A DNA stretch of 64,000 nt, taken from NCBI RefSeq assembly GCF_040958095.1, contig NC_091227.1:18467776-18531775 (forward strand), in the 5' to 3' direction. Made by a program: the position numbers and the translations under genes. Under the pieces are notes generated by a model. It saw only the letters and a list, made by a program, of their open reading frames with translations, was not told where the DNA came from and did no database searches. Below, one piece after another: positions 1 through 62,109 of the stretch. Source of the DNA: Procambarus clarkii. Lineage: Eukaryota; Arthropoda; Malacostraca; Decapoda; Cambaridae. Numbering within the stretch: the first letter of the stretch is position 1; every line of letters begins with the position of its first letter.

Positions 1-2519
1 AGGAAATACACTCATTTGTCTCATTGATAACACTGCAAATGAGGAAAGTATCCACAAACAGGGAGCTGATGGCTCACAGTTGGTGAGTTCCAACTGAGGA
101 ACATTGAATGTGTCTCTGGCCATTGAGAAAGCTAGAAGATAAGCACTAACTGGAATTACTGAAAGGAAGGAGACACATTTAGTGAAAAACATTATTGAAA
201 AAATTTATGAAGTCTAGGTGCAGAGCTGGTCTTCACGCAAGAGACACTGTGGAAAGCAAACCAAATGACCACTGGTTCCTCAACATGGAATAGATTCCAC
301 AACAACAGTATTCCATGATATAGGCAAGAGATCAAGACTGAGCCCAAACTGGCGGTGTTGGGTTAATGCCCAAGGCAAGAAGACACACATATTTCTACAT
401 AAAACTACGGTACTGTACTGTATTTTCAATTTACACTCAATTCCATTATCCATTAATTTTCTGACATTAGCATTGTTTTGTTAATAAAATTTTGCACTGG
501 AATTTTCCAAAGTTAACAAATTTTCTTCACTTGAGAAAATATATAAAATGGAACAAAAGAGAGTTCCATTTTTATCCTTACTCTTTTCTAAGGGAAAAAG
601 TCACATATTACCTATAATTTGGATATGTATTGCCTTTTATATATTTTAATAATCCTCAAGTAATATTGTAAACAACTTATCTTGTATCTGTTTGTGATCC
701 TTGTTCACCAATTATATAATTTGTCTTTCCATTATTAATAGAGAAGGAGAACAGGCTCTTGCAAGATTATCTCGGATGATCCGTGGAATTGGTGATCCTC
801 TGATGGCTGCTTATGCACGAATGTATGTGTGCCGCATGGGCTTTGAGTTGCACCATCACTCACTCAATATATATCAGAGAGTATAGAAGATTTTCTGCAT
901 GCTCTGAAGCAGGTATGTTTTTGTGTACATGGCCTGTTTACTTGGGCTTATCTTAAAATAAGAGGCTGGCATTGGTCTCTTAATTCAGGTCTTTCAATGA
1001 TGCTTGTATGCATTCTTGTAATGCATACAAGCCAGTCCATGCCATCAAAGTAAAAATTAGGCGATTATGATCTACTTATTCTACAGGCATTTTAAAGTCG
1101 CATTCTTTCTTCAGTCTAGTATTAAAGCTTCTTAATTTTTAGACAAAATTAGTATAACTAATTTATTTTGTTAGTCAAAATGTTTACAATTCTAGGGACC
1201 TATGGCCAGAAGGAGAAGCAGACATGAATATGGGTGAGGATAAGGATTCTCTGGCCGTTCGTGTTTTTCTCTCCGCCGCTCAGGTGGATGATGCAGTGTC
1301 TGGCCAGCAGTGCCCCCCACCACGTCCTGCAGGTAAGCCATATTGTGAATGGCAACACTACTGGGAAGCACAGTGTAATGACGGCTTCTTTAGGAATTAC
1401 CAACTTCAAGGGGAGTCAAGCTGGTTTACTATATTTATGCAAAAGCATACCGTTTGTGGTAGAAAATCTCTGGTTAAATTTCATATTATAGCTGCAAATA
1501 GATTAAACTATTTTAAAGAGCAAATTAAGTAAAATGTCATTGATGAGAACATTTTAATGAATTCCTGGCTAATAATAATGATGAAACTGGATTTAACTGA
1601 ATTGTACCCAAAGCACAACTTTTGCTAAAAGGTTAGACTAAAAAGTGTCGGGTTGTAACGCATTAAGAAATTCCATGCACAACTTCCCTGTGGTCTACTA
1701 TCCCTCGAAGAAGGCTTAGGTAACAATGAGGATTTTCTTGGGCAGGTTTCACAATAATTTTAGCCCAGAAGTTACAGTATGAAATGAAAAAAGTGGGGCA
1801 TTAGGTACACTAGATTCAAGCATTGTTGCTTTTAGATTATGTTACTGGTCAACCTAATATATAACAATCTGAAATCTTCTGATGGAACTATAACATGCAA
1901 GGCTTTACAACCCAAAATGAAATGAGAAATTATATTTCTCTGATACAACCTTTGGAGCTAGGCATTATATATACTTTAAAAAGGTATTAATGTAATTATG
2001 TGTTGGTATTTGAAGTGGAGGATGATTAGTGTATAGAGATAGGTAAAGAGCAGCAAAACATTGAGAATATTATAAAGATAAACGGTTAAATTGACTACTA
2101 GGAAAAGCTTTGGAAATAGATCAAGGTAACAGCTCTAAAGTGGACCTTGGATAGGTTCCTAAAACTTCTGTCCCAGCTCAGGAGTCTGAATGTGAAGGCT
2201 TTGAGGTAGAAATCTTTTGAATGTTTGTTCACAGATGTTGGCGAGGAAATTACCTGACAATGCAAGAGAAAGGTTAGACTTATGCAAATGTCCCAGGTTT
2301 TGTATTTTGACACCAGTTCATTTTCTGGCAGTGTGCAGGAGAATGAACTGGTTCACAAGAAAAAGAAGCTAAAATACATACCTTAAATAATGAAAGGATT
2401 ATTGTAAGTTTATGGAACTGATGATCTGTAGAATGGTTTGTTTTTGGCATTTAAAGTACATGCGAGGGCTTTCTGTCAAGTTGATTAGATCAGGTAGGCA
2501 ACAAACTCTATAGCTAAAG

Positions 2520-2715
2520 CAGGACTAGGGGGCAGGACCTGGTGGGACCTTGTAGGTGGAATCAAAAAGGTCTTGAGGTAGTCTAGTAGGAACTCAGAGG
2601 TAGGGTCTAGTAAGGACTCAAGGGCACAATCTAGTAGGGATATGGGTAATATTTAGTAGGACTCAGGTAGGACCTAGTAGGAACCTGGGGCTAGGATCTA
2701 GAAGGGTTTTCTGAT
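2520..2715 (+). repeat. Imperfect tandem array, GGACCTAGTAGG-like
   Basis: About seven diverged units of roughly 25 bp contain variants of tctagtaggaactcaggg, lying in the intron-11 equivalent. The same array is at 46630-46830 in the main gene copy. Confidence 0.6.
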
Positions 2716-4494
2716 TACATGGTAATCAGCGCATACATGTAAACACACTTGGGTGTATGCAATCAGTGTCGGAAAAATTGTTCTCTGAGCACAACTTTGT
2801 GAATACTTCAGACTTACATTTTGGTAAGGAGAATTGTTTAACTATATATCTGTTATTTTTCAGAACCTTTATACTGGAATAAAGTAGTAAATGTAGCTAC
2901 AATGTAGGTGCTAAATGATGGATTATTTGTGGAATTATATACTTAATTGCATAGTAGAATGTTAAACTTCATGAGGTGGTAAATAATAAAGTGGTGTATT
3001 TATTATCAGAGTGTCCTTCGTCAGTGTGAGGGAGGAGAGGGCTTGGGTCAGAATTTACTTGTTTCTTGCCGTGCTCACCACGTTTCCTAACCACTTCGTA
3101 GCCTCGCAGGCACTTCCTCTCACCCACCTTATAGCTGGTTGTTCCTCTCCAGGTTAGTGTGCTTACCATATACTAACACCATTTCATGGTCTGTGTCAGT
3201 TTGATTGGAAGATCATCTTTACCAACAACTTTTATATTTGCACATTACAGCCTGTAGACACTGCCATTCCTGGAGGAGTTCCCCATGTAAAACCATCCAT
3301 AGACCTATTAATGTATCCTTAGGTGGTAAAAATGTTTTGATATACACTGTAAAATGTAGTAAAGTTTACTGACGAACTATGAACGCAGTAATGTAGAATA
3401 CAAGATTTTTCTTAACTTACAAAGTCGTAGATGAGCAGAATTCCAGAATAAGTGGCATGTACGAAGAACACAGGCAAACTTAAACCGAATTATTATAAGA
3501 TGTGCAATTATGACATGATTTTGTTCTATTAAGCGGCAAAAACACCTAGATATTGTGTTATTTACCCAATAGTACCAAATACCAAAAAAAACTCCTTTTC
3601 CAAAAATCTCAATTGATTAGGTGGAGGGTGATTGCATTGTACAGTATACAATATTATATAACAACAGAGTTGAGTAATATTAAAACTTGATATTTCAGGT
3701 AAAGTTGAGCATGAACTGTTATCAGCCCTCGGTGGGTGTGTGAACCAAGCTGCTCCTCCCCAGCACCAGCAGCTCCCACTTCTGAACGCTGTGTGGAAGC
3801 TCATCGCTCGTATACCTCGAACCAAGGATTACCTCTCTACTGCTGGCATATGGCTGGAGTATACTGCTAAGCACTTTACAGTAAAGCCCTTTAAAGTTTT
3901 GGGTCTGATAATCAATAGTATGAGGTAGAATATCTTGTTAATTTTTGCAATTTCATCCATAGGTTGTACAATACTTGTACTCTAATTGGTATTAGTTGGC
4001 TGCCAACTAACACCAAATTACATTCTGGCATCTTTGAGAACACTACAAAACATACAATATACTGCCCAAGCCATCATGGAAACATCAGAGTGGCAAACAG
4101 CTACAATGGGCCTACTGGCCCATAAGTGTGGTGTTTCACCTTCACCTTTGTCATGGGGTTGTGATACTTGTTGTGGTATACTCAATGTAAACCTACCACT
4201 AGACTGTGCTCCAGGGTTGCCTTATTCATTTCAAACATACATTCTAGCAAGCCCTCCAAGGGGGTTGGGTCAAGGCCCAGCCCATAGGGAAAGTATTCCC
4301 ACAAATTGACCTGCTTTTGGATGTGATAGACCCCACACTTGACAAAAGGAATAACTAGTATGTATACTTACGTTTTATTAATCCCAGAATCCTTTCCACG
4401 ACAAACTGGCACTGCCTGTTCACATTACGAGTTTAGTAGTTTTTATGTTTATTTAATGCAGGCTTGGTTACAACGGTTGGTTGCAATATAGTGA

Positions 4495-4840
4495 TGTGTC
4501 TGCGGTCTATCCCTGTGCCCACGACGTTCGTAAGTTCGTCGTAGGCATAAGGTGGTTGTTTTGGGATTCCTACCTTTCTGGGTGCGTGACCTAGTAGCTG
4601 GCAGACATAGACTACTTCCAACTACACCGGGGGGGGGGGGGGCTATAGGCCATTGCTCCTCGTGTCTCTCTTGAGGGCCCAGGTTCTGGCACTGGTCCCC
4701 GGTAGGCTTAGAACTCCATCGATTGACTGTTGCCATGGTCTAATATATACACATCAGCCTGGTATAGCTCCGGGAAGCCTCTGGGTCTCACCCAGAAAAT
4801 GGTGTTTCATTACATTCAACACTTTTGTTTTTGTTTGGTA
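4495..4840 (+). mobile_element. DIRS-type retroelement fossil, 3' end (duplicate block)
   Basis: The stretch at 4499-4535 translates to a tyrosine-recombinase-like segment containing H-D-V-R, the HxxR box of DIRS recombinases. It is followed by the family's right-hand terminal repeat, which ends in an AAAATGG-ttTCATTACATTCAA-like tail. Only the 3' end of the element is here, and it is a degenerate relic. A poly-G run near 4629 differs in length from the copy at 48750. Confidence 0.6.
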
Positions 4841-6035
4841 CCAACTCTCTCATTGTAACTTATACATTCTGGGTAAACCTCAGAACATAGTATGGTAATT
4901 TTTCAAATATTGAACTTAAGATTATACATGTAATAAATGAACATAAATTCCATGGATCTTTATTTCTGAACAGTATTACTTAGTTCTCCTACCACTTCCC
5001 AACCATGAATAGATTTGTATTCACTAATGGCAAAGATGAGAATAAACATTACCATTTATTTGTTCATGGGGGAAAAATTGTGGAGATGCAAGTCATGTGT
5101 ATCATTTGAACGTGTCATTATGTAAGAATGTAAACCAAACTGTGCATAAACATGCAGAAATCTGTGCCGGCTTAATGTTGGGAACCCAGTGCTTCCATGT
5201 AATAAAGTTTTAAAGTGACTACAGTGCCAACTATGCAGATAGTAAATGACTCGAATACAAACTTTGTTGGATAGTGAGAGTTGATTACACAATGTGTGTA
5301 AATTATTTATAGTTTTGCTCATCTGAAGCATTTTCTTTACAGTCAGTTGAAGTTACACCCTGCTTGGAGATGTTCTGAAACATGTTGGGGCAGATGGGAG
5401 CCGTGACCAGGCTCATTATCCTGCACTCCTGGCTCTGGTGTCTACTGCTCTTACCAACTCCACCGATCCTCACTCACTCTTCTCCATGGTGTGTCTCTTG
5501 GTATTATATAATTTAAATTATAGCTTGGCATAACACTGTCCTCAATATATTGTATATGTATTTTCAGAGATGTCTGATTCTAAAAATGGAAAGCTATATG
5601 GGATAAAACATTGAGGCCATCCCATGTATGGCCTTATCTAAAGTACTGTATTCAAAACTTTGTAATAATGTAGCTCTTTAAACTAAAATTGTTTTGCATT
5701 TCATTTTGTAGTAAAAATTATTTTTCTACAATTCTGGAAACATTAAACACTTTTGATAGGTTAAACAATCCAGCACCAGGGAGTTGAACAAGATTGTTTA
5801 ATTTAGCAGTTATTTAAGCTTGTGTTTTATTGTTTCAGAAACACTTTGTGGGTCTACTGAATGTGTTTTCAACGAGACAGTGTGAGTGCAGGTGATGGAG
5901 TGACACGCGGAGTGGTTGAAGCACTGCTCTCTCACCACCCGGGCAACTTCACAGACCCAACCTTAGTGCAACACCTTCTTACTCTTTGTGGTGCACTCCA
6001 CGACTCCATTAAGTAAGCAACTGATATTTCTGTGG

Positions 6036-6190
6036 AGAAGCCCTGCTGGCTCCCTGGAGATATTGGACTGATATTAGCTAATATTAGTACAGGGCTTCAG
6101 TCATATGGAGTTGTCATGCTACCGGGGACCAGTCACCGAACATTTTCCCCCTCAGAGAGGTGAAGGGAGGCTGACGGCTTCAACAGTGTC
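6036..6190 (+). mobile_element. DIRS terminal-repeat fragment (duplicate block)
   Basis: A solo piece resembles the left terminal repeat seen at 27748 and 56745 (CTCCCT-ggagatat, then ACCGGGGACCA, then CTCAGAGAGG). It starts about 25 bases after the exon-15 donor equivalent. No coding part is attached. Confidence 0.55.
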
Positions 6191-7754
6191 AGTTTGGACA
6201 GCTAGACAAGAGTAATGCTTCCAAGATCAGGGTGCATGTTATCGAGTGAAGGTCCTTCTATGCGGGGCATTCCTTACCAACAATTTCACCTTCTCCAGAA
6301 TCACTTTAGTTGTGGAAGTCACTTCTGTGCTAGAGCAGCACTCTAAAGGTTCTCCATCAATAATATATTTGAATAGGGGGCTTAATATAGTAGGAACTTG
6401 AAACTGTATCTATGCTGAGGGCACTTCAATAGTGTGGCAGTATTCAGAAGGGTTTTACGTGAACACTGTGGTAAAACAATCAACATTAATTTACAAACTT
6501 GCCTCTAATCTACAGGGAGCTTGCATTACTTTGAGTGGTGTCATTAAAGTTACTATCGCTTTATAGAGAGACTGGATGCCTCTCTGACCTGATCATATGG
6601 TTTCTTGTGGACAATCCTGTCTAATACTTTAGACAACCACTCATAGACACTGCTTTCCTATCCAGTTGTAAGGGAAAAATTGCGAGTTTTCTCTGGACAC
6701 TTGGGGTCGTAAATGACACGCACAATCAGCAAACAGTAATGACCTGCCAAGTTGACAGTCACTCTAGCATGAATACTAAATGCATTGTATGTGTAACATA
6801 CACATTCACTCTTGACAGGTTGAATAATTGTGATTCCACACAGATAATCACTTCTTTACCCTCATTCTGTCTGTACACTCAAATCTCCACCTGTTGCAGG
6901 TGTTTAACACGGTGAGTAAGCCTTCGCCTGATCAGCAATTGGCGTGAAGATAGACAATAAACCAGTGACACTTGGAGTTTGTACTTAAAATAATGCTTGC
7001 CTCAATCATTTATACACCCTCTTATACACAATGTTTGTTGCTGTGAGGGAAAGTCGATGAGAACCTTGCAGGTGGTACGAGTCTTGGTGCCCACAGGGGC
7101 TGTGGCTCAAGAAGCATTAAGAGTCCTTAGCTCAGAAAAAATGTAGAATTTATGTGCTTTGTTTACAGTGAAATATACTTTTTTTTGTTATTTCCAGTGC
7201 TTTAACAACAGATGATGAGAGGCGACAATTGTCCCAGCTGATTATATCTTTATTCGGCAAGTTAATTTTGGACGGGATTTTGAGCAGCAATTAGATTTTT
7301 ATGTAAATGCTCGCGCCGCCTTCTCCAACCTTGACCCAGTGCTGGTTTCTCTTGTACAGGTAAATTTAGAGAAGTAATATACAATGCTGTATAATCGAAG
7401 TGACCTTAATACTATGTTACAACTCATCTTCCAATATTAATAGCACCTACAGCTATTATAGGGTAGAATGTACAAAATATGTACTGCTGTACCCCCAAAA
7501 AGTTCATATTTTATACTATTAGAATTCTAAATGGCATAAAAATAAATCAAATAGTATCCATAATCCTCACCTAATCTGTCAAAGGCCTAAATAAGCAATT
7601 TTTTGCCTAACATATACAATCTTGTGTCAAATTTTGTACTGGACTAAGCCAAGAAAAGTTAGATTTGGTTGTTGTCTTCATTCTCTATCACTCTACAAAA
7701 TTTATAGAAGAAAACATGGACTTTTGTGCATGTGCTACAGTGCATATTTATACT

Positions 7755-7895
7755 TCTATCCATAGTAACACTGGGTACTTCCTTCCATAGTAGCACCAGG
7801 TATTTTCCATCCATAGTAACATTATGTACTTCCATAGTAATGCTAAGTACAGTACTTCCATTCATAGTAACACTAGGTACTGTACTTCCATCCTA
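7755..7895 (+). repeat. Minisatellite, CCATAGTAACACTAGGTACT units
   Basis: About five imperfect units of 25-30 bp lie in the intron-16 equivalent. The allelic array is at 51888-52015. Confidence 0.6.
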
Positions 7896-8689
7896 GTATA
7901 ATGGTATTTGTGGATAAGAAATACCAGTCATGAGTCAATATTTATTAAGGGCAACTTTAGGTGTAAGAGCTTTGACAACTCTTGTTATTAATGGTTATCT
8001 GTAAATAATCTCGCTTCCGGAATGTTTGCTCTACTGGTCTCACTCATTTAGTTAAGTGTGTTAGTCTTAGAATAAGGTATTTCTTAGTACTGAGTGGTAT
8101 TTTTAGGAGCTGTTTTATGGTAACATTTAATGAAAATTGGTGAATGTATTAGGAAATTTACATTGAATTGGCTAATTTTTATGATATAGCCAATTATATT
8201 TACCACAGGACAATATTATATATTCTCTGCTATAGTTGGACCTTGCAGTGAAAGATAAAATGGTAGAATTTAATAACAGATGATATTTTGCTTATAAAAT
8301 GTTCAGCAAATCTAATCTATATCTGATAAAATAGTTACAGGCAAAATAATACTTTTTATTAAAGTCTACCCTCCTGGTGTTTCTCCATCATTGTCAGTAA
8401 TTTGTGTTCCTCACTACCTGGTTATACTTCAGTTTTGATATGCTGTGTTTCAGTGTGTGTGTCAACTAGCAATGGCAACTTGGAAAGTGATGCACGGCCA
8501 ACACTCTGGCAAGACAGGCTCATTTGTTCGTGCGTGTGCTGCGTACTGCTTCATTACAGTGCCTTCATTAGCTTCCTCCGTGATGCGCCTCAAACTCTAC
8601 CTTCTCTCAGGGACTGTAGCATTATTAAATAACTGCTTAGGCCAAGGTAAATATTTCCTGATTATATCTGAACTTTCATTGCATTGATT

Positions 8690-9345
8690 GTAAACAAACA
8701 CCTTTTTCTGGTTGGGCCTCGTGACTCTATGGTCCCGTTTCCCCACCTTTCAAGGTTTGTCAGTGAGCTTTTTCTGTGCTCCAGACCGAGCTGTTGACAT
8801 GGGGAGTCGGGGCTCCTAGTGATGTTGCCACCTGGTGATGGCAACCTGTAATTAGTGCTTTTGACCTAATTGCTTGGATAGTCAGTGAAGTCATTTGTTG
8901 CTTTGTTTCTCTTCTATCTGTGAACCTTGTGGTTGTTTTACTACGCTTACTTTCTGGATGTTTCCTTGGTGAAGGTGATCATAACAATTCTCTCCTCCCT
9001 GAGCCTCTGTGAGAGGGGTGCAGGTTCTGGCTCTGGGGCCAGATTCACCAAAGCAGTTATGCAAGCACTTACGAACATGTACATCTTTCGCCAATCTCTG
9101 ACAGCTTTGGTTACATTTATTAAACAGTTTACAAGAATGAAAACTTGCAAAATCAACTGTTTAATGATTGAAGCAAAGCCGCCAAAGATTGAGAAAAGAT
9201 GTACAGGTTCATAAGTGCTTGCATAACTGCTTCGTGAATCTGGCCTCTGGTCTCCTGTAGGCCATTAAGGACTCGTGATGTGACTTGTGTGTGACTAGGA
9301 GCCACTGAGGTCCGACCAGAAAGAGGCGTTATTACATTCAACGCT
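8690..9345 (+). mobile_element. Divergent DIRS-like relic with a nested MITE (duplicate block)
   Basis: The right part (9250-9345) has the ACTAGGAGCCACTGAGG and TTACATTCAAC signature of the DIRS right terminus. The left part (about 8700-9030) is GC-richer than the intron and includes CTCCCTGAGCCTCTGTGAG. A palindromic DNA element at 9037-9245 is inserted into it. The left boundary is uncertain. Confidence 0.4.
9037..9245. mobile_element. MITE with long terminal inverted repeats (duplicate block)
   Basis: A palindromic element of about 209 bp starts GGCCAGATTCAC and ends in the reverse complement (GTGAATCTGGCC). The arms extend about 90 bp inward. It is flanked by TCTGG on both sides (9032-9036 and 9246-9250), a probable 5-bp target duplication. 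There is no coding capacity, and the superfamily is unknown. Confidence 0.75.
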
Positions 9346-10052
9346 GGTATTTTTTTTTTTACTTTCTATTGGCACCACTTATCCTGTTTAGCAGGAATTT
9401 CCATACCGAGTGCTTAGCTAATCCATTGCAACCAACATCAATTGAGATGGAATCCTTTTTAATTACATTCAATTTCCTAGATGACCAAACCCTGTTAGAA
9501 AAGGAATTCACTGTTGTTGATAAAATCATACTTAACATGACTGACAGTGTGACATGTACATTGTCAAAAATGCATATGATACTTATGTCCTTTCCAGTAC
9601 ATATGTAACACAAATCAGTAGCTAAAAATTCAGCTTAAGTTACTGTCCAAATTAGCTGGACATTTTCATGTATTGTATAATAATTCATATTTCCAGGAGA
9701 TGCCTGCATGAAAGCTGCTATCAGAGAGGTGTTGGAAGTTGAAGGCTCTGCAGAAACGGGCCCAACCCCTGATGTTCTGGCGGTTGTTGGTTGGCAACTT
9801 AGCTTCTACCCTAGTTGCTACACCAGATCCCCCTGATGCCTCTCCACCACTGTACTTGCTTCGTGGTCTTACTAATGCTTTACGATCCAACTCTTGGCAA
9901 AAAGATACAGACATTCAAGCTGTCTTGTCAATTTCATTACTCCATGCTCTCTCTGCTGCATCTCAGGACACTTTACCTTACCATATTCACTCGGGTAAAT
10001 TTTAATATTGTTTTATTGTCAGTATCAGTTTCTGCTTTTATATATATGTATA

Positions 10053-10159
10053 TGTCCCCTTCCATTGTTGTTGTTGTTGTTAAAGACTCGCTACCTGGAA
10101 CAAAAATTCCAAGCAACACGGGCTGTGGTGAGCTCGTAGATAGTTATTGTCCCCTTCCA
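10053..10159 (-). mobile_element. SINE-like insertion with 12-bp target duplication, absent from the other copy
   Basis: The 83-bp body at 10065-10147 is flanked by identical TGTCCCCTTCCA direct repeats (10053-10064 and 10148-10159). The other copy (54172-54182) has a single TGTCCCTTCCA and no insert. Read on the minus strand the element ends in an (AAC)n tail, and its core matches 15612-15705 and 35440-35560 (GCACGGGCTATAGTGAGC). It is a short retroposed sequence that separates the two copies. Confidence 0.85.
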
Positions 10160-10835
10160 GAAATGTGTGTAGGAAAGTTTGAAGTTAGAAAGTCTTCTCT
10201 TGAAATGGCAGTTTGTGTTCCAAATGATGAGTAACATGGATATTTATACTAAAATAATTTTTGTATTCAGTGATAATAATTATTAATTAACTGGTGTATG
10301 CCCTACCTTGCTAAGTATAGTTGAAAATTAATAATACACGCAGAAAAGGGGAAAAAATTCCTAACTTGACACTATTATATTAATATAAATACAATGTTTT
10401 TTTTATTTCAGTGGAGGGTAATGACTCACTGTACGGAGGAGATTCACAAGTACAGCAAGAAGCAGAGCAACTTTGTACAGCAATATTACATAATATTCTC
10501 TCTTATATGCAGGTATGGTAATAACAACACACTCTGATATTTATGGAAATAAATAATGTGATAAAAGGACTGAAATTGGTAAGATAAATATTGAATGATG
10601 AGCAAGGTGAGGACACTAGGACAAAGTGTGCATGTGAAACTGGCTTTACAAGAGTACAATCTGGGTTTAAATATAGGACATGGAGTTTGGAAGAGGGAGT
10701 GAAATTAAATATGAAGCATCAAAGGGTGGAGGTATAGTAAGCTGCAATTTAATTATGAGTAAGTGTATGTTAGCTTGAATGCCTTGTTCAAGGCAACTGT
10801 GGTTCCATCACAGAGGAATACACTTCTCTGTGTTA

Positions 10836-10985
10836 GTACTGTATTCCTCAGTGCTAGTGATGCACTCCAAGGAGCTAGTGCTATACTCATTGTGCTAGTG
10901 CTGCATTCGTCGGTGCTAGTGCTAAACTCTTCAGAGATAGCACTACACCCCTTGGTGCTAGTACAGTACTGCATTCTTCGGTTCT
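10836..10985 (+). repeat. 21-bp minisatellite (short allele)
   Basis: Units of GTGCTAGTGCTGCACTCCTC type repeat every 21 bp. This copy has one unit fewer than 54866-55030. Confidence 0.7.
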
Positions 10986-12699
10986 AGCATAAGTTAGAAA
11001 AAAGTGCATATATCTAATGAATTTTAGTCTTTATAAATGTTGATCTAGTGTACTAGTGTATTTCCTTGATACTCTCCCAACATTGCAGAATTAAAAGTTA
11101 ACCCAGAAATCCAATTTGTTATTTATTATTATTTATACTGTATCATCTGTATATAACACTGCATGGGCAAAAATTCTTGCACTGACAAAAATTTATGTCT
11201 GTAGTGAAAAGTTGCAATTATCCTCATTTTAGGGAAATAATTATAATTATATGACAGAGCCTAACTGGAATTCACGAGAAACGTTGTGGAACGCTGGCCC
11301 TGACGTTGTTGTGGTGTATAGTGACATGGTGCGACCTCACCCAACCCCAGATGATGAAAGTGGCCTCTCAGATGTGGTCATTGGTGCTTAAACATAGTCA
11401 TCCAGAAAGTGTGGTTAGTATTAACTATGTTCCTTACTATGTCATGATATTGTGTGAAGTATGTTATTGACCTGTGTTCCATACTCTATGATATGTAAAG
11501 TGTATTATCTATACATTAACATCAGATACTTACATGGATAGAAAAAACTAGATAAGAATAGGTGCAGCTAAGTTGCATGAAATGGTAGTTCCAACCCTAA
11601 TTTATGGTTGCAACACTTTGGTATTGTATGAATGAGAAAACATACAACTCTGAACAGTAGAAATAGATAATCTGAGAAGCATTATCTACATTTACTATTA
11701 TGAGAATAGATAAAAAATGAAAAGCTCATGGAGATGGAGAGTGCAACTATCAGTTAACTATAATATTGAGTAGAGTAATTGAAATCTGAGGATATGGGCA
11801 TACTGAACAAATGGTTAGACTGATGAAGCGAGTGTATTAGTGAACTTGAGATGAGGAGAGGAAAGCTTGGAAAAGTGGACAGGCCCAGTGATTATACAAG
11901 GCAGTGGTAAGTGAGTATTAACAACACACAAGGGACAATGCTGGGTGGAAGTGATCTGTAAGGAGGTGTACTGACAAATCATTTGAAGCCTTTTATACCT
12001 GGTCTTGTGAAGCAGTTGGGCACTGATATGGATGATTGTTGGAAAGCAATTGTGCTTGTGTGTGATGCTATATACAGTGAATGATACACTGAATGAAAAA
12101 ATAATGTTTTCTCTTTTCATATATGTAACCTACTTTCACAATATTGATCTCTTTTTCTCTTCAGGCCAGTGCCTTCCTGCCCCCATGAAAGTGGAGACTG
12201 GGTAACATGAACTTGAAGCAAAGTGCTATGATAACCACTTGAAATTATTTATTTTCATTGCTTATCAAGCTAACAATTAATTTTTTTATGTAGATGTGCA
12301 CTGCATACATTCCTACCCTTCAAGTTCTTGTCCAAGTATTAAATATAAGGCACATCTTGAGTTAATTACAACATTAAGATTTCAGTGCACTTCATGGTAA
12401 CAGCTGCAGTTACCCGGTCTCCTTGGTTATGAAGCATAGTTGCTGTTTTTGTTTGGAGAGATACATGTGCTTTCTTCACACTTGAATCCCTAACTGATTT
12501 GATGACATCTTTTCTAGGTTCAAGCGAGGGACTGGATATCAAGACGTTCTGTTCAGTATAAAGATGGAAGCCTGGCTCAGCTAGTTAGACAGTGCTAGGT
12601 ATAGAAACTAGTACAATGTCTATATAATTTATGAAGGTAATAATGCAGTTAGTGATACTTTAAGATCATTTGCAATGAAATTTGATCTTTTCTGGGAAG

Positions 12700-12934
12700 G
12701 GGGGCCTCTTCAGCTCCCCGGAGTTATCCGGGCTGATATAAATGTATTAGACCCTGGCATTAGTCAAGCGAATAGAGTTCTAGGCCTACCAGGGACCACG
12801 AGCCAGAACCTGGGCCCCCCTCAGAAAGGCACAAAGAGCAATGGTCTATAGAAACCGGTTTCCCTTCTTCCCTGTTCCAAGATGCAGATTTCCCAGGTCG
12901 TCTGCAGGGTTATTCGGTCCAGCCAGCCTGCGGT
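12700..12934 (+). mobile_element. DIRS relic cut by the assembly gap
   Basis: Left terminal repeat and the start of the recombinase-like part of the element seen whole at 56745-57840. The contig ends inside it at the gap. Confidence 0.65.
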
Positions 12935-13434
12935 NNNNNNNNNNNNNNNNNNNNNNNNNNNNNNNNNNNNNNNNNNNNNNNNNNNNNNNNNNNNNNNNNN
13001 NNNNNNNNNNNNNNNNNNNNNNNNNNNNNNNNNNNNNNNNNNNNNNNNNNNNNNNNNNNNNNNNNNNNNNNNNNNNNNNNNNNNNNNNNNNNNNNNNNNN
13101 NNNNNNNNNNNNNNNNNNNNNNNNNNNNNNNNNNNNNNNNNNNNNNNNNNNNNNNNNNNNNNNNNNNNNNNNNNNNNNNNNNNNNNNNNNNNNNNNNNNN
13201 NNNNNNNNNNNNNNNNNNNNNNNNNNNNNNNNNNNNNNNNNNNNNNNNNNNNNNNNNNNNNNNNNNNNNNNNNNNNNNNNNNNNNNNNNNNNNNNNNNNN
13301 NNNNNNNNNNNNNNNNNNNNNNNNNNNNNNNNNNNNNNNNNNNNNNNNNNNNNNNNNNNNNNNNNNNNNNNNNNNNNNNNNNNNNNNNNNNNNNNNNNNN
13401 NNNNNNNNNNNNNNNNNNNNNNNNNNNNNNNNNN
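12935..13434. other. Assembly gap, exactly 500 N
   Basis: A run of 500 Ns. The round number is typical of a fixed-size scaffolding placeholder, so the two flanks need not be neighbours in the genome. Confidence 0.98.
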
Positions 13435-14283: not shown

Positions 14284-14553
14284 TAGTTTACTGTGCAGCC
14301 CATACTCATCCTGTGAGTGGTAGTTTACTGTGCAGCCCATACTCATCCTGTGAGTGGTAGTTTACTGTGCAGCCCATACTCATCCTGTGAGTGGTAGTTT
14401 ACTGTGCAGCCCATACTCATCCTGTGAGTGCTAGTTTACTGTGCAGCCCATACTCATCATCCTGTGAGTGCTAGTTTACTGTGCAGCCCATACTCATCCT
14501 GTGAGTGCTAGTTTACTGTGCAGCCCATACTCATCCTGTGAGTGGTAGTTCAC
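14284..14553 (+). repeat. 37-bp tandem array, about 7 units
   Basis: Units begin TAGTTTACTGTGCAGCCCAT and end CTGTGAGTGG/C, starting at 14284, 14321, 14358, 14395, 14432, 14472 and 14509. One unit has an extra CAT. The units are nearly identical, so the array is young or homogenised. The 400 bp after it hold nothing recognisable. Confidence 0.9.
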
Positions 14554-14970
14554 TGAAGCACCTCATTACCCATCTTTACAGAGGGCACAAGAGGTTTAAT
14601 TAGCCCTCAGTGGGTGTTGGTTTGATGTATTTCTGTTCATATGTACACAATTAATTTCATAATAATGAGATTGGTGTGATAACAGAACAGCAACTGCTAT
14701 GTGCAACAACGCTACATTACGAAATGCAAATCAAGTCATTTAGGCAACAATTAACATAATTATCAACACTGGATATTGTTGATATTATAAGTGAACAGGA
14801 GTATTGCATGTTACATAGACCCGAATTCCCCTCTGATGTTAGGCTACAAAGGTTAATTCTTCACGTAAATTTTCATATATTTCTTACAAACGAAACGTTG
14901 GGATATACATTGCGTATTTCAGGTATTGTATCATTAACAATCTAATCACACTAAAGTGATGCATCAAACC

Positions 14971-18588: not shown

Positions 18589-18594
<6 letters not shown>

Positions 18595-18642
<48 letters not shown>
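18595..18642. repeat. TA microsatellite
   Basis: A short TA run abutting the left arm of the foldback. Confidence 0.9.
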
Positions 18643-18645
<3 letters not shown>

Positions 18646-18742
18646 ATCTCAGTTAAATGCATTAATTAAAAAATTGCAACAGTTGCCAAAATCACATAAT
18701 ACGAAATGTAAACCCAGGTAAGAGGGGGTTGCTAGGGGGTTG

Positions 18743-18952
<210 letters not shown>

Positions 18953-18984
18953 TTCAACCAGTGAGTGGTAGTTTGTCGTGCACC

Positions 18985-19080
18985 CCGAACCCCGACCAGT
19001 TGTATAAGCGGACCCCGCGACCAGTTGTGTAAGCAGACCCCGACCAGTTGTGTAAGCGGACCCCGACCAGTTGTGTAACT
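18985..19080 (+). repeat. 24-bp tandem repeat
   Basis: Four imperfect units of CGACCAGTTGTGTAAGCGGA followed by CCCC. Confidence 0.85.
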
Positions 19081-19698
19081 GCAAGCCTTAGCATGAACGA
19101 ACCTAGCAACCCCCTCTTACCTGGGTTTACATTTCGTATTATGTGATTTTGGCAACTGTTGCAATTTTTTAATTAATGCATTTAACTGAGATCAAGACAA
19201 ATATATATTTCCAAATTAAATGTAAATTTCTTTAGTTTAAAAGAATGTAAATCTATATAAAATTTAAAAGAATATATATATACGAACCCTTTCCTATATA
19301 CATATGCGCTGGCTTGTGTTCGCTGCTGGTTCAAGTTCAGTTTAAGTTCTTGAACTTGAACTTGGCAGCACCCAGTCTTTAATTTGGCACCTTTGTGGGA
19401 CCTTGGTATAAGCCTAACATCTATATATACACTGGCTGCCTGTCCCCATACACAATGATTTATTATTACCTAATATTTTATCATTTAATTTAAATATTAA
19501 ATAAAATAATTTATTTAATTATTATAGTAAGTAATTAATAATTTAATAATAAGTAGTAAGTACATAAAAATGATTAAAAAGTACAGTTTAGTCATAGGAG
19601 ATTCCTAGATTGGAATTCACTACCAAATTTCGATATATCCAAGTATTTTTAGTGTGAAATGCTGTTATTATATGCATAAATTGTTGTTTTAATAATAT

Positions 19699-19890
19699 TA
19701 CGCTTAACCACTTGGGCTGGACGGTAGAGCGACGGTCTCGTTTCCTACAGGTCCGCGTTCAATCCCCGGCCGCCCATGAGGTTGGGCACCATTCCTTTCC
19801 CCCGTTCCATCCCAAATCCGTATCCTGATCCCTTCCGAGTGCTATATAGGCTTGGCGCTTTCACTTGATAGTTCCCCCACCCCCCTAAAT
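19699..19890 (+). mobile_element. tRNA-derived SINE
   Basis: A tRNA-like head (GGGCTGGACGGTAGAGCGAC, then GTTCAATCCCCGG as box B), then CCATCCCAAATCC, CCTGATCCCTTCCGAGTGCT and GGCGCTTTCA. The 3' part recurs in reverse at 16670-16795. Confidence 0.75.
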
Positions 19891-20402
19891 AATATTACGA
19901 GAGCAATATTTACGGGCTATTCATGCCCGTGCCACCTCTTGGGTGGCTTAATCTTCATCAATCGAGAGCAGTACGTCCTAACCAGACGTTATATGATGAT
20001 ATCCTGAACAGTTGATAAATAAAAGTAATTACGGAACTCCAGTTATCTAATACTTATCATAAATGGTATAAAACCTTATCAAAAGCCAAAGGATTTGTAG
20101 ATCAGTGTTTAAAGGGAATTCGGAAGTAATAATAATACAGCTGATGCCATCTGTCGGCAGAAGAGAACACTATTAACTGGCTGGTCAATAGTGGCCATAA
20201 GGTACAGCTTACGCCATCTGTTGACATCAAATTACACTTATAACAAATTACCCTACAAAAAACAACTAGCGCCATCTCTTTTTTTTCCAACGCACTATAA
20301 ATAGCCAAACAGCAACCCATAAGGCGGGTTGTTGTGTTCGGGTAGGAGGTTCCAAGCTCCGCCCACAGATGGTATAGGGTGCATAATGTTGACATTCACA
20401 CA

Positions 20403-21280
20403 ACAGCCAATCACAGGAAGGGATCAGCTAAAGGCTCCATCCACTTAATAAATCATCTTTATTCAGCACACCATCCTTGCTTATGACATTTTGCTTCAAC
20501 TTTAATCTACCTAAAAGTGAAATGTTAATTATTTAAAAGTATTAATATAGTGATAATTAAAAATACTGCAGGATGTAACGAGTGTTACAGAAACATGGGC
20601 TGGCTACCTGACTTGTGACGTCATCAGTGGGAGTTGCCTCACACAAATAATATCGGCGATACAATGCCTGATCCGCCCTCATATTGGTCTACATTATTCA
20701 GTTAGATGGAAATTTCTGTCTTGTATAAAACAGAAATTGTTGTTCTTTTGTACAACAACACCAAGGTTGTTGAGCAAAAGGGCGTATTTCTTATTTTGCA
20801 TTTTATTCATATAAGCGTTGGCATTCCCCGCGACAGCCAATCACAGGAAGGGATCAGCTAAAGGCTCCATCCACTTAATAAATCATATTTATTCAGCACA
20901 CCATCCTTGCTTATGACATTCTGCTTCAACTTTAATCTACCTAAAAAGTCAAATGTTAAGTGTTTAAAAGTATTAATATAGTGATAATTAAATAATGCAG
21001 GATGTAACGGGTGTTACAGAAACATGGGCTGGCTACCTAACTTGTGACGTTATTATTGGGGGTTGCCTTGACACAAATAATGATACACGGCTCTGCCCTC
21101 TTATTCGAGTAAATTATTCAGTTAGATGGAGATTTTTGTCAGGTGTAAAACAAAAATTGTTGTTCTTTTTCACAAGAACCTTGTTGTTGTGCACAAGGAC
21201 CTATTCCTTAGTTTAAATTTTATTCATAAAAGAGTGTTGGTATTCCCCGCAACAGCCAATCACAGGAAGGTATTTCTGGA
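20403..21280 (+). repeat. Two tandem units of about 425 bp plus a partial third
   Basis: The sequence beginning ACAGCCAATCACAGGAAGG recurs at about 20403, 20831 and 21252. The first two units are closely similar end to end, and each carries TTAATAAATCAT, a GGCTGGCTACCT block and a CRE-like TGACGT. A diverged relative lies at about 22155-22330. The function is unknown. Confidence 0.85.
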
Positions 21281-21504
21281 AGCTCCGCCTCCTTATGGAC
21301 TCAGCACATCGCTCTAGCTCATGACTCGCTGCTTCATCTCTTGTATATACAAACTATGACTTTTTTTCGATTACTGTTATAAATAATAGTATGAGATATA
21401 AAAGTTTTTACACAAAATGGCTAAATTCTGCCATTAAATAGATTTTGTCTGGTGTACATACAAACATACACCAATTTATTACCATTCATCCATTATTAAT
21501 TTCA

Positions 21505-21645
21505 TATATAATGTATGCCCGAAACGCTTTGCGTAATAGTGGCTTTAGGCATTGTATGTACTAGCTATACCTATAAGTTAAACAATCCTTGTAAATATTT
21601 ATTGTATGTATGTACCTTACCTAAATAAAATTGTATTGTAATTGT
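21505..21645 (+). mobile_element. LINE 3' tail
   Basis: GCCCGAAACGCTTTGCGTAA, TGGCTTTAGGCATTGTATGT and TATGTACCTTACCTAAATAA. The same blocks are at 26773-26900, so this is a repeated 3' end. Confidence 0.6.
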
Positions 21646-21649
21646 TGTA

Positions 21650-23075
21650 CTGTCTAGTTTTTTCCTTTCGCCATTACTTGGTGCAATACTTGAAAGTTGT
21701 CTATTTATTTATCGATCTATTATCTTGTATTTATATTTACAGGTTTCTGTGCTTGGAAGAAAACTCTGCATTGAATTGGGACTACTTTATTAAATAATAT
21801 TATTTAGTATTAATTAATATATACAATTATTATTAATTACAATTATTTATAGCTTAGTTACTTTCATGTAACTCGCAATCGTACAGTCTTAACATTAATA
21901 GCCCAAATTAACACATCTTGCTTTTAATTAGCCCAAAAAGTAGCAAATAGCGAAATTAAAAATATGGGAGCGCGGGGGCTCTCAAAAGTAGCCCAATTCG
22001 CTACTTGTAGCCCAATCTGGCAACACTGTGCATAATAGGAGCTTGAGGCGCGAGCTTCCTCAGGCGGGAAAAAGTCGGTCATGTCATGTTTTAGTGGATT
22101 TTAACATCAATGAATGAGATTGTTTTGCGAATATTAAAATTACGTTCTGTAACCTCAAACAGAGGCATCGGGTTGCCTCAAACAAATAATATCGATGATA
22201 AAAAGCTTCGCCCTCTTAGTGGACTAAATTATTGAGTTAGTTTGCATTTAATTCAGAGACATTTTGATATTACCTGCAACAGCTAATCACGGTACAAAAT
22301 GGCTAAATTCTGCCATTAAATAGATTCTCTTGTCTGGTATACACAGAAAAGGTACATTTTATTAGTATGCACCCATTATTAATTATAATTATTTAATATA
22401 TTTATTTATGTACTTATTTATTGATACAAGAAGGTACAATAGGTTTGTGAGAGTACATAACATTGGTGCTCTTACACTCTACACTGTATACACTGTAGCA
22501 ATTTTAGGTTTAATATAATAACTACATATAAATTGATGAAAATTATTACACTGGTGAAGTTGCATGTCTTAATTACTAATATTGGGGAAATGGGTAGTAC
22601 AAGATAAAGTGTGAGTTTGAAGCACAAGGTAGGAAACTATGAGGATGATATTAGGTACTTTTTGGTTTTACTTTGAATAAGGTATAAGTTGGAATTTTTT
22701 TAATTAATTAGGGAGTGAGTTCCATAGACTGGGTCCTTTTGTTTGCATAGAGTGTTTGCACAGATTTAGTTTGAGTCAGGGGATATCAAGGCGATATTTA
22801 TATCTGGGGACACTGTTTCAACTTTAATATGGGTACTATTATACCTATTAATGAAACGTTTGAGTTCAATATTAGAAATTAAGAACAGTTTCCACAGTTT
22901 TGTACAGATAAATAGCACAATAGAATGGCTGGAGTGAGTGTATGTTTAGCATGTTAAGAGATTTAAACAGAGAATTACATCAATAAAGCCAACAGAATAA
23001 ACAGAGAATTACAGAAAGAAATAAACAGAAAGAATAAACAGAGAATTACATCTATAAAGCCAACAAACTTTGTAA
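21650..23075. other. AT-rich intergenic stretch
   Basis: No gene is seen. It includes a diverged partner of the 425-bp unit (about 22155-22330) and a repeated ACAGAGAATTACA motif near 22970-23050. Confidence 0.5.
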
Positions 23076-23077
23076 AA

Positions 23078-23130
23078 TCTCTTTATGTATGTACCTTACC
23101 TAAATAAAAATTATTATTATTTTTATTATT
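23078..23130 (+). mobile_element. Short LINE 3' tail
   Basis: TATGTACCTTACCTAAATAA followed by ATT repeats, matching the ends of 21505 and 26773. Confidence 0.5.
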
Positions 23131-23359
23131 ATAGAAGCTGTGTGTTGTCTAAAGACAGAATTCCATCTCATTTCCCGGGGTCGGGAAAGGATATGGAATA
23201 TCCCTATCCTCTTGATATTCAGGTAAATTCTGGTAAATATGAAATGAATATTTAAATAACGCGCGGCAGTTAATGACATAAACATTTATAGCAAAGCTCC
23301 TTTGCCAGAGTTTTGTTAACTGGTTTGTGATAGGTTGATGAGGGATGATACGCCCCTCT

Positions 23360-23421
23360 CTACTGGCCACACTCGTCTCTGCCTGATGGCCTCTGTATAA
23401 GACCTTTAAAGTGGGCGGAAC
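23360..23421 (+). promoter_or_regulatory. Candidate core promoter / 5' UTR of VPS35L
   Basis: A TATA-like GTATAAG (23394-23400) and GTGGGCGG (23411-23418) lie just before the proposed start codon. The start site is unproved, and transcription could begin further upstream with non-coding exons. Confidence 0.3.
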
Positions 23422-23435
23422 ATGTCGGTGGTTTG
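23422..23435 (+). CDS. VPS35L: VPS35L exon 1 (candidate)
   Basis: Fourteen coding bases, ATG TCG GTG GTT TG, then donor GTGAGA. Phase 2 matches exon 2, and the joined start MSVVW resembles the human start MAVFPW. The ATG has an A at -3. A rival first exon ending at 16493 (TTTTAG|GTCAGT, same phase) was considered less likely. Confidence 0.5.
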
Positions 23436-26400
23436 GTGAGAATTATACATTGTACTGATATTCTCTAGTCGTACCTAATATGCCTGTCATAGTCATTTAT
23501 AAAACGCTGTAAGGTGCAAATGATTGACTGCTTAGGAATGAGACAGTAATGATCAGTTGTACAGTGTGCAATTAAATCCCAATCCCTGTTTGGGATGAAA
23601 AATTGCAATCCATGTTGGGTTATTTGTTGACCTACGTAAGGCTTTTGACACTGTCAACCACCAAAACCTTCTTCTTAAATTACATCATTATGGAGTCAGA
23701 GGTCACTCCCTGCAATATCTTCAGTCTTGCCTTACTGACAGGCTCCAGTATGTTTCTGTGAATAATTCAATTTCTCCCACCCTACCCATGAACATTGGTG
23801 TTCCTCAGGGCAGCATACTTGGCCCTCTCCTCTTTCTCATCTACATTAATAATGACCTTCCAAATGCAACACCTCAAACCAATTATATTTGCTAACGACA
23901 CAGTTTTAGTTTAGTTTCATTTTCTCCAGTCCTGACCCTCTTGTTCTAAATGTCACAGTGAACACTGAACTAAATAAAGGCCATCTTTGGCTAACTGCCA
24001 ATAAACTCACCTTTAACATTGACAAAACTTTCTATATCATGCTTGGCAATAAATCCTCAAATCAAATTAATCTAAGAATAAACAATATCCAAATTAGTAA
24101 CAAAGTACATTAGATGGAAAATTCCTTGGTATCCTCATCGATAACAAGCTGAATTTCCAGGGACACATTCAAAATATATCAAGAAAAGTTTCTAAAACTG
24201 TTGGCGTTCTTTCTAAGATCAGATATTATGTACCTCGCCCTGCCCTGCAGACGCTCTATTATTCTCATCTATCCTTATCTAAATTATGGTATTTGTGCTT
24301 GGGGTTCTACACAAAATCATTTACATCCTCTAATTATTCAACACAAAGCTGCTATTAGAACAATATCTAACTCTGGCCCCAGACATCACTCAGTACCCTT
24401 ACTCAAGTCTTTGAATATACAGTATTAGATATTAAGTCACTGAACATCCTCTCATGCATACTCTATATATTTAAAACTGAACTGCAATGTCATTCCTGAC
24501 CTTAGAAGCTTCCTAGAAGGTTGTAATAGAACTCCTGGGCATCACACCAGAAACAAATACCTATTTCATATGCCAAGAGTGCAACTTAACCAAACTAGAA
24601 ATGCTCTACAAATCAAGGGACCCAGAATGTGGAATGGTCTCCCCCATCATGTCAAAGGCTGTACCTCTCTCAACCAGTTTAAGAATAAAACCAAGTGCTA
24701 CTTAATTAACTCCATGTAACTTCCCTTACCCCCTAAATGCCAACCCCATGGCTTGCTTTCGTTAAACAATGCTGTTTGTTCTCCAACTTGTAATTTGGCA
24801 TCCACTTTACCAGGAATTATCAGATCTTGACCAGCTTCATTTTAATTCGGTGAATTGAAAGACAGGGCTCAACACAGTCCTTATTTCTTGTCACCTTTAA
24901 ATCCCATAAATACAAATTAACCATTAGTAACCTTACCTATTGTTCAATAGTTTGGTATATTTACTTCAGAAGTTCACGTAATTGTCCTATTCTCTTGGTA
25001 TCTTTTAGTAAGACTTTGGGCTAAAGGTAAAGCTTTCGAGTCAGGCTTAAAAATTAGGACTTCATTCCCAGTTGAGCTATACTTTTTTAGTATTATTAAT
25101 GCAGTGTTTTATATTTTACAGGAAAATAGCTGTTCGACAATGGGGCTTGGAAAAGAATCCATTGGTACCAAAGCCAACCTCAAGTCATCCGCTGCAAGGG
25201 GCAAGTTTAAGACAAAAATTTTAATGCAGAACCCATCTCAGTTATATTGAGACTTGAGTCATAATTTTACAGTTCTATGTCATTTTTTTACAGCACAACA
25301 CATTTACTGGGTTTGTTTTAAAAATGTTATTAGGTGCAGTTTAATACAGGTTTTATGTTACTTTATCACTCTACAAATTAAATTAGTCACTTAATAGGTG
25401 ACAACTTTCTATACTATTGTAAAAGGATGGTTTATTTTTCTAAATAATTAGTTGAAAGTCTGTTCAAGAAGCAGACAGTAAGTCACAATAATTTGGCCAA
25501 AAAATAAACACCCAACCATAGAGCTGAAAATAAAAGAATTGATAATGTTTTGGTCTGTCCTGGACCATTATCAAGTCGTATAATGAAAAATAGTATGTAC
25601 AGACAAAATGACTAACTGAACCTTATATTTACAGGTGAAGGACCGAACTCTGAAACATGCAGGGCAAGTATATGACAAGAAAAGCAGGCCTGCTGTGCAA
25701 CCGGTAAGTTCAATTGTCTTTATTTGCTCTGTATAATCAGTCCTGATTTTCTGGACTAATTAGTATCTCTGGGTGTCTGGAATACATATTAGTAAAAAAA
25801 AGTATTATCTTTTATAATATTTTCACGAAGTTTCACTAAGAATCTACAAAAATACATTTAGTTCTCAGATTATTTCTTGTACTATTTATACAGTATGTAA
25901 AATACAACAGATTATGGTTGACCCACTGTCATCAGTTCTGGATGGTCCCGATCCCCTGAGTGATCTTCTTAGTGCTTCAGATCCGTTATCTGGCAAGGCC
26001 TTTCCAACTGCTTCATTTCAGGTAAATGACGAATTGGATCTCTCTTGTATTAGAGTTTACTCGACTGTTTCTTTATTACACAGGCTAAATGTAAGTGGGT
26101 ATAAAAGTTTTGTTCATAAATTAAGTATTTCTGTTTGTATTTGGAAAGAAATAAACTATACCAACTGAAAATTAATAAAAAAGTACAGTATTTTTTATTT
26201 AGAGACATGAATTTATTGTTTTATTTTGTTGCTGCATCTCTTCAGCAGTTTATTGTAATATATAACGATCTTAAGAGAAACTTATCCAGCTTACATGAAA
26301 TAAAATCCTAAAACACCGTTGAGGACCATTGGGGAAATATTCCTGTTCAGTATACCAAGATGTGCATGTGAATGAACAACTGCAGTTGTTACCATTATCA

Positions 26401-29400
26401 TTCATGGGGTGGGGAGAGAGAAGCCTACAACAGAGCCGGGGAACTGTTGTGGGTTGCATCCCCGGGAAGGTCAGCAGTTATCATAGAAGGACCTTGATTT
26501 ACCTACCCCGCCTTCTTGTTATGTAGACCATATAGTGAACCATACCTAAAGCAAAAGGTGAATCATCAGATTACTAATCTAATTACTTTACCCCTCTATT
26601 GTCAACCCATGTCTGTTATTTTTTTTAATGAACACTGTTTGTCAACCTATTGTATTTGTGCTGCTTTTCAGTCATGTTCCCCCTTTTTTTTTTATCTTTA
26701 TTTGTATTTGTTCTCAACACATTTTATTCTTTATGCTCAATTAGTATTAAGTTCTAGATATTAATGTTCTTCCTGCCCGAAACGCATTGCGTAATAGTGG
26801 CTTTAGGCATTGTATGTACTAGCTCTATCTATATATTGATCCATTAATGTAACATCACTTGTATGTATGTACCTTACCTGAATAAACATATTTATATTTA
26901 TTTTATTTATTAATAATGTTGATCAAAGAAATAAAACAAATATATGCAACAATACTGGATAGGCAATCCATTGCTATAGTACCTCAGTACAGTATAGCTA
27001 AGACTCACTCCACCTTCATCTCCCTTGTAACCTCCATTCATATATATTTATTTATTAAAGAACTAGTGGTCATTATACACCCTGCCATACACTTTACATT
27101 AATATCACACAACCCAGGAAGTTAGTCAGTGTTGTGGGGTTGTATCCTGTGGATGGTCAGTAGCTCAACCTTAAGGAGACCTTAATATAAGCCTAATGTA
27201 TATATATATATACACACAGGTTTCCTGTCCCTGACAAAAGAAATTAAATTAATTGCTCCAATAATAATATTTATTCCATTCATTATTCTTTCTTCCTTTC
27301 TGTTTTATCTCACATAAAGCCAGCACCTTAAAGATTTGCCACTTCCAGCTTCTGTTGTTCCTCATTTCTTCTTCTAACATTCCACACAGCCATATGGTCC
27401 GAGGCCTATGCAGGTCCTCACTCCAAATCTGAGGCCAATTTTGAACCATTTATAGAGGTACAACTGCAGCAAGTAATTAATTTGTTTTTAGATATTGGAG
27501 GAGAATAGAGAGACAGAGATGACCATCGTGGACAGTCGACATAGTACCTGGGAACAACACCGGGCATTCATACTTACAAATTTTACCACAACTGGGACCC
27601 TCACCTTCACTTCAAGTTTCCTGCAGCCGTCAGACTCGGGTGAGGTTTTAACTCGGCTGTACAGTGAGAATGCCATAAGTGAATGTGATCTGTTTAATTG
27701 TTAGTCATTAGAAAGGAAAAATATATTATTAGCATACAAAACAATTTTTCTGTGAGGCGCCCCATCGGCTCCCTGAAGTTATCCGAACTGATATGTGCTA
27801 TATTAGTTTGAGGCCATCAGTCACAGGAGTCATTATGTCTACCGGGAACCACAAGCCAGAACCTGGCTCCCTCAGAGAGGCGCAGGGAGCAATGGCCTAT
27901 GCACACTTTACATTTAAACTATGTCGTGTTGTAATTGCCATCTACTGGGGAAATCTGAAAAATTGATGAAAATTGCAACTTATGTCCGAACATGGCAAAA
28001 GAACTCCCCCCTAGAAAAAAAACAAGCAACGCTTCATCCAACTAGCACCCCCACTCGTTAGTCCTACCCCCCCCCCCCCCACACACAAAGGTGGGGTTAG
28101 AAGATGGAGCCAGCTCACCATTCTAGTTCTTGAACTAATGTGCTGGAGTCAGCTCGGTCACCTCTGGCCTCAATTTCTTGTTCTGGATTTTGCCCCATGT
28201 GGCTGTACCAGCAGTGTGTGTGGTGTGGTGTCCAGGTGTCTTATTGTATGCAGAGCAGCATGCACCTAGGGTAATCTTCCATAGGTGCTCTGCAAGTTTT
28301 ACCCTTGCATTTCAGGGTTATCTTCCCTGGGGCATTCAGGACTCACTCCTGTTTGAGGACTTCATCACTTGACGTTGTCGTCACCCTTGGGGTACGTTGG
28401 GGTCTTGGGCTTTCCGTCTTGCCCCAGGTGGGGAGTATTATTGGCTATGCAGGGCGTACTGAGGCCAGCATAGCTTACACATGCAACAGCCTACGATTCT
28501 CCCCGGCTGCCAGTTTCTTGTGTGTCTTCGGGAGTTTTGTTTTTCTTTCCTAGCATTTTTGCTTTTTGTTAACGGAGGAGGTCTGCCTAGCTTCTTATTA
28601 GGAAAGCCTAGGTTGTGATGGGGGTCCTCCTCTGTTGCCCTCAAGGTTACATGGCTGCTATTGGTGGGGGTTTTCCTGCTGACTGAAAAAGTTCTACTGG
28701 CTTGGCAAGCCCCAGTGCCTGGGCTTCCCATAGGACTTCCTCACTTTACGGGCCCTGGAAAACCCAAGTGGGCTCGGGGGCATCATGGATGTGTCTTACG
28801 AGTCTTCTCTTGCCTTGTGCGAAGTTAAAGGTTGTTCGTCGTCCCTGTCTCAGGGAGATGATCCTGAGGCAGGATCCTGCCTCCGTCATGCTGCCTGTTG
28901 GGTCAGTGACACCTATGACCTGGAGTCTTACCGGACTTGTTCCCCGCTTGTGTTTCAATTTACCCATTCCTTGTCTTATCATCTCAGGGATCAGATGGTG
29001 GCTGCATTGCATGCTCGATCCTCCTTATTGCAACGGGCCGGGTTGATTGCCCGGTTGGAGGCCCTGGAGCTGCCCCACTTGGGTTTTTGGGACCAGGATT
29101 TGGGGGAGTTGGTTCCTTTGGCCTTGATTCCTGTTCACGCCCTGCTTCCTTCCCAAGTGGGTGTGGTTTTTCCCTGCCCCTCCCTCCCTAACTTCTGGCT
29201 CCTGGCTCCCAAACGTCTAAGGGTTTGGGGGTCAGGAGAGAGGGTTTAATTTGGGATGAGGCTCGGGTGGCTTTAACTTCGGGGGTTGATTCGGCCACGG
29301 TTGTGGTTGGCCCGATTTTCCCACCAGGGCATCTGAGTCAACCCAGCAGACTCACCTCATGGAATCTTTACCCTTTACTCGACCTTTTCTTCAGGGGTGG

Positions 29401-56650: not shown

Positions 56651-56744
56651 GTATAGAAACTAGTACAATGTCTATATAATTTATGAAGGTAATAATGCAG
56701 TTAGTGATACTTTAAGATCATTTGCAATGAAATTTGATCTTTTC

Positions 56745-57840: not shown

Positions 57841-58680
57841 CTGTTTTTTTTTTAAGAATTTATTTGAAAAAAAAAAAAATTAAGCTTAAAATGTAGTTAA
57901 TCTAAACTTTCTACATGGCAATAACCAAATATAGTACTGAAAAAACAAGAAATGGTTTGGCACCCTTATGACATTCATTTATTTAAATCATATAGATGTT
58001 ACAAGTCTAAGTTTTACAATTTTGTGACAAAAAATATTTCTGTTGAAAAAGATGGTACATAAAACGTGTGAAATATTTCACAAACTGGTATGACTACTTC
58101 CCTCTCCCTCACTGGTACACCGAGCAGCTGTTGTAAATGGAGAGTTTGCAGGGCTATGTTTTCTACTACTGTAATATATGCTAACCATTGTGATATTATA
58201 TGGTAAATACATTAAATAGACTTACCAAACATGAGTTTCAGTAGGCAATACAAAGTGGTGTGAGAGGTATGACAAGTGGTGCACAACAAGTGTTAGGCCA
58301 CTTGTTTATCTCTCGGTGGTAAAGGTTCACATTTTATATTCAGCAGGCAAGTTGACCCCCTGGTTTTGGAAAGAGATTTTTAGGCTTCAAATGTTGACTT
58401 GTATGCCAGCATATACAGTAATTATTTTTTGGTCTGTAAATATATGCTTCTATTGCTAATACTTTTTTTTTCCCCTTTGAGTGAAGTAGCTAAACATTTA
58501 TGATACATTACATTACTAATATTAATTACTGTAGTATGAAAATTACAAAATGCACTTTAAAAGTATTACTGAAGGAAAACCTAATCCTTATTTTTCTATG
58601 TTATCTGTATCAGTCTTTCATGTACAAAGTGAAAATGGAAACGGCCCCTTTAACTATTCACAACTTAGCGAGACTAACTC
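57841..58680. other. AT-rich stretch
   Basis: Poly-A and poly-T runs near 57840-57880; nothing else recognised. ATTAAA near 58208 is the first common variant polyadenylation hexamer I noticed after VPS35L. Confidence 0.4.
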
Positions 58681-59115: not shown

Positions 59116-59130
59116 CTGTGTGGCAGGCGC
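59116..59130 (-). other. Possible 15-nt microexon, minus strand
   Basis: On the minus strand, GCGCCTGCCACACAG is flanked by a pyrimidine-rich acceptor (CCTATTCTTTCCTGGCAG) and a perfect donor (CAG|GTGAGT). It lies beyond the terminal-exon candidate at 60512-60589, so it would serve an alternative 3' end. There is no transcript support. Confidence 0.25.
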
Positions 59131-62108: not shown

Positions 62109-62109
62109 G

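Follow-up and report, generated by a model that had tools for sequence, protein, structure and literature searches.

A very probable false duplication of VPS35L at a contig boundary in the genome assembly of Procambarus clarkii

Results and Discussion

Two copies of a VPS35L locus on either side of a run of N

We analysed 64,000 bases of the Procambarus clarkii assembly (the window, C78:18467776-18531775), which lie on a scaffold of 26.7 Mb; the genome searched comprised 4.03 Gb in 2,308 contigs. Positions are given relative to the window, where 0 is the base just before window base 1, and negative values lie upstream. The window contains the last 12.9 kb of one contig (1-12934), a run of 500 N (12935-13434) that is probably an assembly gap rather than withheld letters, and the beginning of a second contig (from 13435). 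Self-comparison of the window showed that 1-12934 is colinear with 44115-56986 on the same strand, as an earlier note on this DNA had claimed, and the identity is about 98%. In a global alignment of this 12.9-kb part alone, 12,687 positions match and 105 do not, with 77 gap events.

When 200 kb of upstream scaffold were added, the match extended 30.6 kb to the left of the window, up to -30647. The left copy (-30647 to 12934, 43,582 bases, C78:18437128-18480709) pairs with the right copy (13435 to 56986, plus strand, 43,552 bases, C78:18481210-18524761) in alignment rows of at least 300 bases. The duplicated unit is therefore about 43.6 kb long. The earlier note gave 12.9 kb, and the 3' half of the gene, because the edge of the window cuts the duplicate. 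Aligned over the whole overlap, the copies agree at 43,287 positions and mismatch at 135; of the 139 gap events, 122 involve a single base. The limits of the match coincide to the base with the start of the right contig and the end of the left one. Hence, the 500-N run sits exactly between the copies, at the break of colinearity, and the last matching base directly precedes 12935, just as had been noted.

Outside the overlap, we compared 169,352 bases to its left with 37,014 bases to its right, and found 68 hits, the longest of 569 bases at 78% identity. These short matches look like dispersed repeats, and they are the only ones that the right contig past the overlap (56987-64000 in the window) has with the left side. 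The left contig continues for about 93 kb past the overlap, up to a run of 5,000 N, which may be a gap or withheld letters. In the genome, a 2-kb probe taken from the right copy matched at full length twice, both times inside the window, and gave three short matches at 71-78% identity. Probes of 1.8 kb from the flanks had one full-length genome match each, among the best 40 of 11,742 candidates for the left flank and among the best 40 of 203 candidates for the right flank (58200-60000), the other listed matches being partial.

The identity of the gene proposed in the earlier note was confirmed. Translated exons of the right copy matched the human VPS35L chain (8p0v_O) with an E-value of 2.2e-84, in three stretches covering residues 314-841. 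Three 5' exons, also on the plus strand, matched human residues at about 65-106 (25911-26046, weak when taken alone, i-Evalue 0.065), 153-220 (41017-41186) and 272-302 (42542-42648). Nine further exons were mapped on the plus strand between 44856 and 54539 (44856-45026, ~45303-45445, 47793-47999, 49473-49613, 49966-50136, 51325-51486, 52677-52781, 53823-54122 and 54447-54539), of which the second and the last were placed by eye. Judging from these matches, the overlap holds exons from most of VPS35L, from human residue 65 to residue 841 with interruptions, and not from its 3' half only. We placed no exon in the overlap for the residues before 65 and for several internal stretches (e.g., 107-152 and 221-271), and a search of the right copy past 54539 found no further exon. 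The 64-kb window had no match in Rfam at gathering thresholds. A short tandem minisatellite and long AT repeats are found near the start of the right contig, at 14284-14555 and 18745-18953.

Differences between the copies

The left copy carries eight frame-breaking one-base indels in seven of the 12 mapped exons, and only three substitutions in the same 1,906 exon bases. The exons at 25911 and 41017 do not differ between the copies, the exon at 42542 has one such indel, and six of the nine downstream exons have the remaining seven. The earlier note had reported eight indels in seven of 12 exons, which are the counts that our exon map gives for the whole overlap; in the 12.9-kb block that it considered, there are seven in six of nine mapped exons. 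The same exons can be read through in the right copy, but the exon map was built on the open frames of this copy and frame breaks in it could therefore have been missed.

The frameshifts could be taken for the marks of an old, decayed paralogue or pseudogene. Yet, the copies do not differ by a single letter along 14,352 bases (18593-32944 in the right copy), a third of the overlap. Such a core does not fit the age needed to break seven exons, unless gene conversion had reset the core. We rejected the decayed paralogue on this letter-identical core, and consider that it almost certainly does not account for the locus. The claim of the earlier note that the duplicate is an artefact and not a decayed paralogue is well supported by the identical core, the indel-rich remainder, and the position of the 500-N run exactly between the copies.

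The differences are very unevenly distributed. Near the start of the right contig (13435-17000) there are nine mismatches and 16 one-base indels, and either copy may be in error there. Between 17000 and 32000 the copies differ only in AT repeats, by a single mismatch and two gaps. In the interval 32000-51500, 88 one-base indels stand against 54 mismatches, of which 17 are isolated. Of these indels, 84 touch a homopolymer of at least two bases (48% of the bases lie in such runs), and 57 are losses in the left copy, so the errors would not be all one-sided. An excess of indels over substitutions is expected from read error and is unusual in evolution. The frameshifts of the left copy look like sequencing errors. 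An identical middle flanked on either side by sequence rich in indels agrees with an uneven consensus quality of the two contigs.

The pattern changes between 51500 and 55000, where 62 of the 135 substitutions are accompanied by 17 one-base indels and by longer ones, including one of 102 bases and one of 22 bases. This patch is clearly allelic-looking, and suggests that the left contig carries the other haplotype near its end. From 55000 onward, there are nine mismatches and one one-base indel. The left contig is therefore cleaner in its last 2 kb than in the preceding stretch, whereas a simple model of quality worsening towards the contig end predicts otherwise. The 105 substitutions of the 12.9-kb part consist of 71 transitions and 34 transversions, and some of the differences must therefore be real variants.

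Origin of the duplicate

We consider it very probable, from the arrangement and the letters of the two copies, that the second VPS35L is a false duplication: two contig ends that share 43.6 kb would have been laid end to end without being merged, so that the gene appears twice. The ends of two contigs delivered by the assembler would represent the same 43.6 kb of a locus that is presumably single in the animal. The merge would then have failed, probably because of uncorrected one-base errors at the contig ends and of the presence of the other haplotype in part of the left end. The scaffolder would finally have set the contigs next to each other with a spacer of 500 N, creating a false tandem of VPS35L.

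Alternatively, some 43.6 kb could really have been duplicated in tandem, and very recently; the N run would then mark the junction, and the one-base differences would be polishing noise. This accounts for the tandem arrangement on the same strand, and a young duplicate is also expected to be nearly identical. It would however require both contigs to end precisely at that junction, even though each of them spans the full 43.6-kb repeat. It also leaves frame-breaking one-base indels outnumbering substitutions in the exons, and the same geometry is seen again on another scaffold (C47, see below). We regard a real tandem as very unlikely.

A purely allelic origin, in which the end of the left contig would represent the other haplotype throughout (a heterotype duplication), agrees with the substitutions and longer indels of the patch at 51500-55000. 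The stretch between 17000 and 32000 would then require two haplotypes that are identical but for one mismatch and two gaps, and the 88 one-base indels against 17 isolated substitutions between 32000 and 51500 also speak against it. Variants that could be specific to a haplotype are many in the patch and absent from the 14,352 identical bases. Since the contigs overlap end to end and share this core, much of the overlap probably derives from the same haplotype, and we give an entirely allelic duplicate an extremely low probability.

The earlier note had described the left copy as an allelic contig, or haplotig. This is not the best description, because the overlap is end to end: a haplotig is a smaller sequence lying wholly inside a larger contig, whereas here the left contig runs about 93 kb past the overlap, and the sequence on that side shares nothing but short matches with the 37 kb compared on the right. 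The probable false duplication of VPS35L at a contig boundary can be compared with two published classes. Homotype false duplications, as presented in Extended Data Fig. 5b (type 1) of Rhie et al. 2021 (PMC8081667), arise where sequences overlap at contig boundaries and scaffolding sets them in tandem, with a gap between them. At the VPS35L locus, too, the copies dovetail at the ends of neighbouring contigs, and they stand in tandem in the scaffold with 500 N between them (12935-13434, which we take to be a gap). The uneven consensus quality of such copies may have a parallel here, for which we used as a proxy the eight exon frame breaks of the left copy (on exons mapped in the right copy), the identical core and the indel-rich rest. 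The locus differs in size, as the overlap of about 43.6 kb is perhaps longer than the value of about a read length given for this class in that paper (PMC8081667). It also probably includes a haplotype patch, for which the combined example of Extended Data Fig. 6c in the same source offers a parallel.

Heterotype false duplications, as described by Ko et al. 2022 (PMC9516828), have in common with our case the location on a single scaffold, the gap between the copies and the false gain of a gene. In our case, 14,352 bases (a third of the overlap) are identical and the allelic-looking substitutions crowd into one patch. The second VPS35L is thus very likely a false duplication of an already published kind. 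The warning of the earlier note about automatic annotation is upheld: at this locus it would call a second, or a pseudogenised, VPS35L.

Similar pairs elsewhere in the assembly

Repeat hits with equal scores on one scaffold pointed to further near copies, and pairs were chosen in this way on three scaffolds (C47, C57 and C51); this choice favours near-identical copies and the pairs therefore provide no false-duplication rate. The two copies on C47 (32688001 and 32730283) are on the same strand, 42.3 kb apart, and differ by eight one-base gaps and no mismatch in 3,004 columns. Those on C57 (23841001 and 23918864) are also on the same strand, about 77.9 kb apart, with five one-base gaps and no mismatch in 3,003 columns. 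We placed 10 probes along the C47 region. Five matched 42.3 kb rightward (all five readable ones up to 32713300), two read N, and three farther ones were unmatched there. The one of these three that was tested (32721001) matched 32678722, 42.3 kb leftward, with 98% identity. The direction of the partner thus appears to switch, as at a dovetail, with a switch point that would lie in or beside N, where no gap was seen.

On C51, two pairs of stretches with 98-99% identity link 15.15-15.31 Mb to 18.57-18.75 Mb, 3.4 Mb apart. The first pair differs in 3,999 columns by six mismatches and by three gaps that amount to 73 gap bases; the second has three mismatches in 1,549 columns and eight in 878 columns. 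They are perhaps parts of one large duplicate, real or false. The geometry on C47, together with the near-identical pairs on C57 and C51, suggests that duplicates were incompletely purged from this assembly. Any gene-family expansion or pseudogene count based on it should therefore be checked.

As a control family we used the second subunit of RNA polymerase (PF00562), which had 110 matches in the genome. About 20 of these are partial copies on C11, and the control is therefore not clean enough to give a false-duplication rate. The partial copies are clustered at 5.4-12 Mb of that scaffold, and most have in-frame stops.

The Pfam family Hemocyanin_M had 31 matches in the genome. The best match of one hemocyanin frame was 1hc1 ("arthropodan hemocyanin"), followed by the hemocyanin 6l8s; we take both to be hemocyanins of decapod crustaceans. 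Clusters of hemocyanin genes were found on C89 (2.76-2.89 Mb), on the scaffold of the window itself (C78, 13.72-13.78 Mb), on C16 (28.75-28.78 Mb) and on C52 (23.22-23.25 Mb). At two of the hemocyanin places on C89 the reading is spread over more than one frame, for which similar base errors may be responsible.
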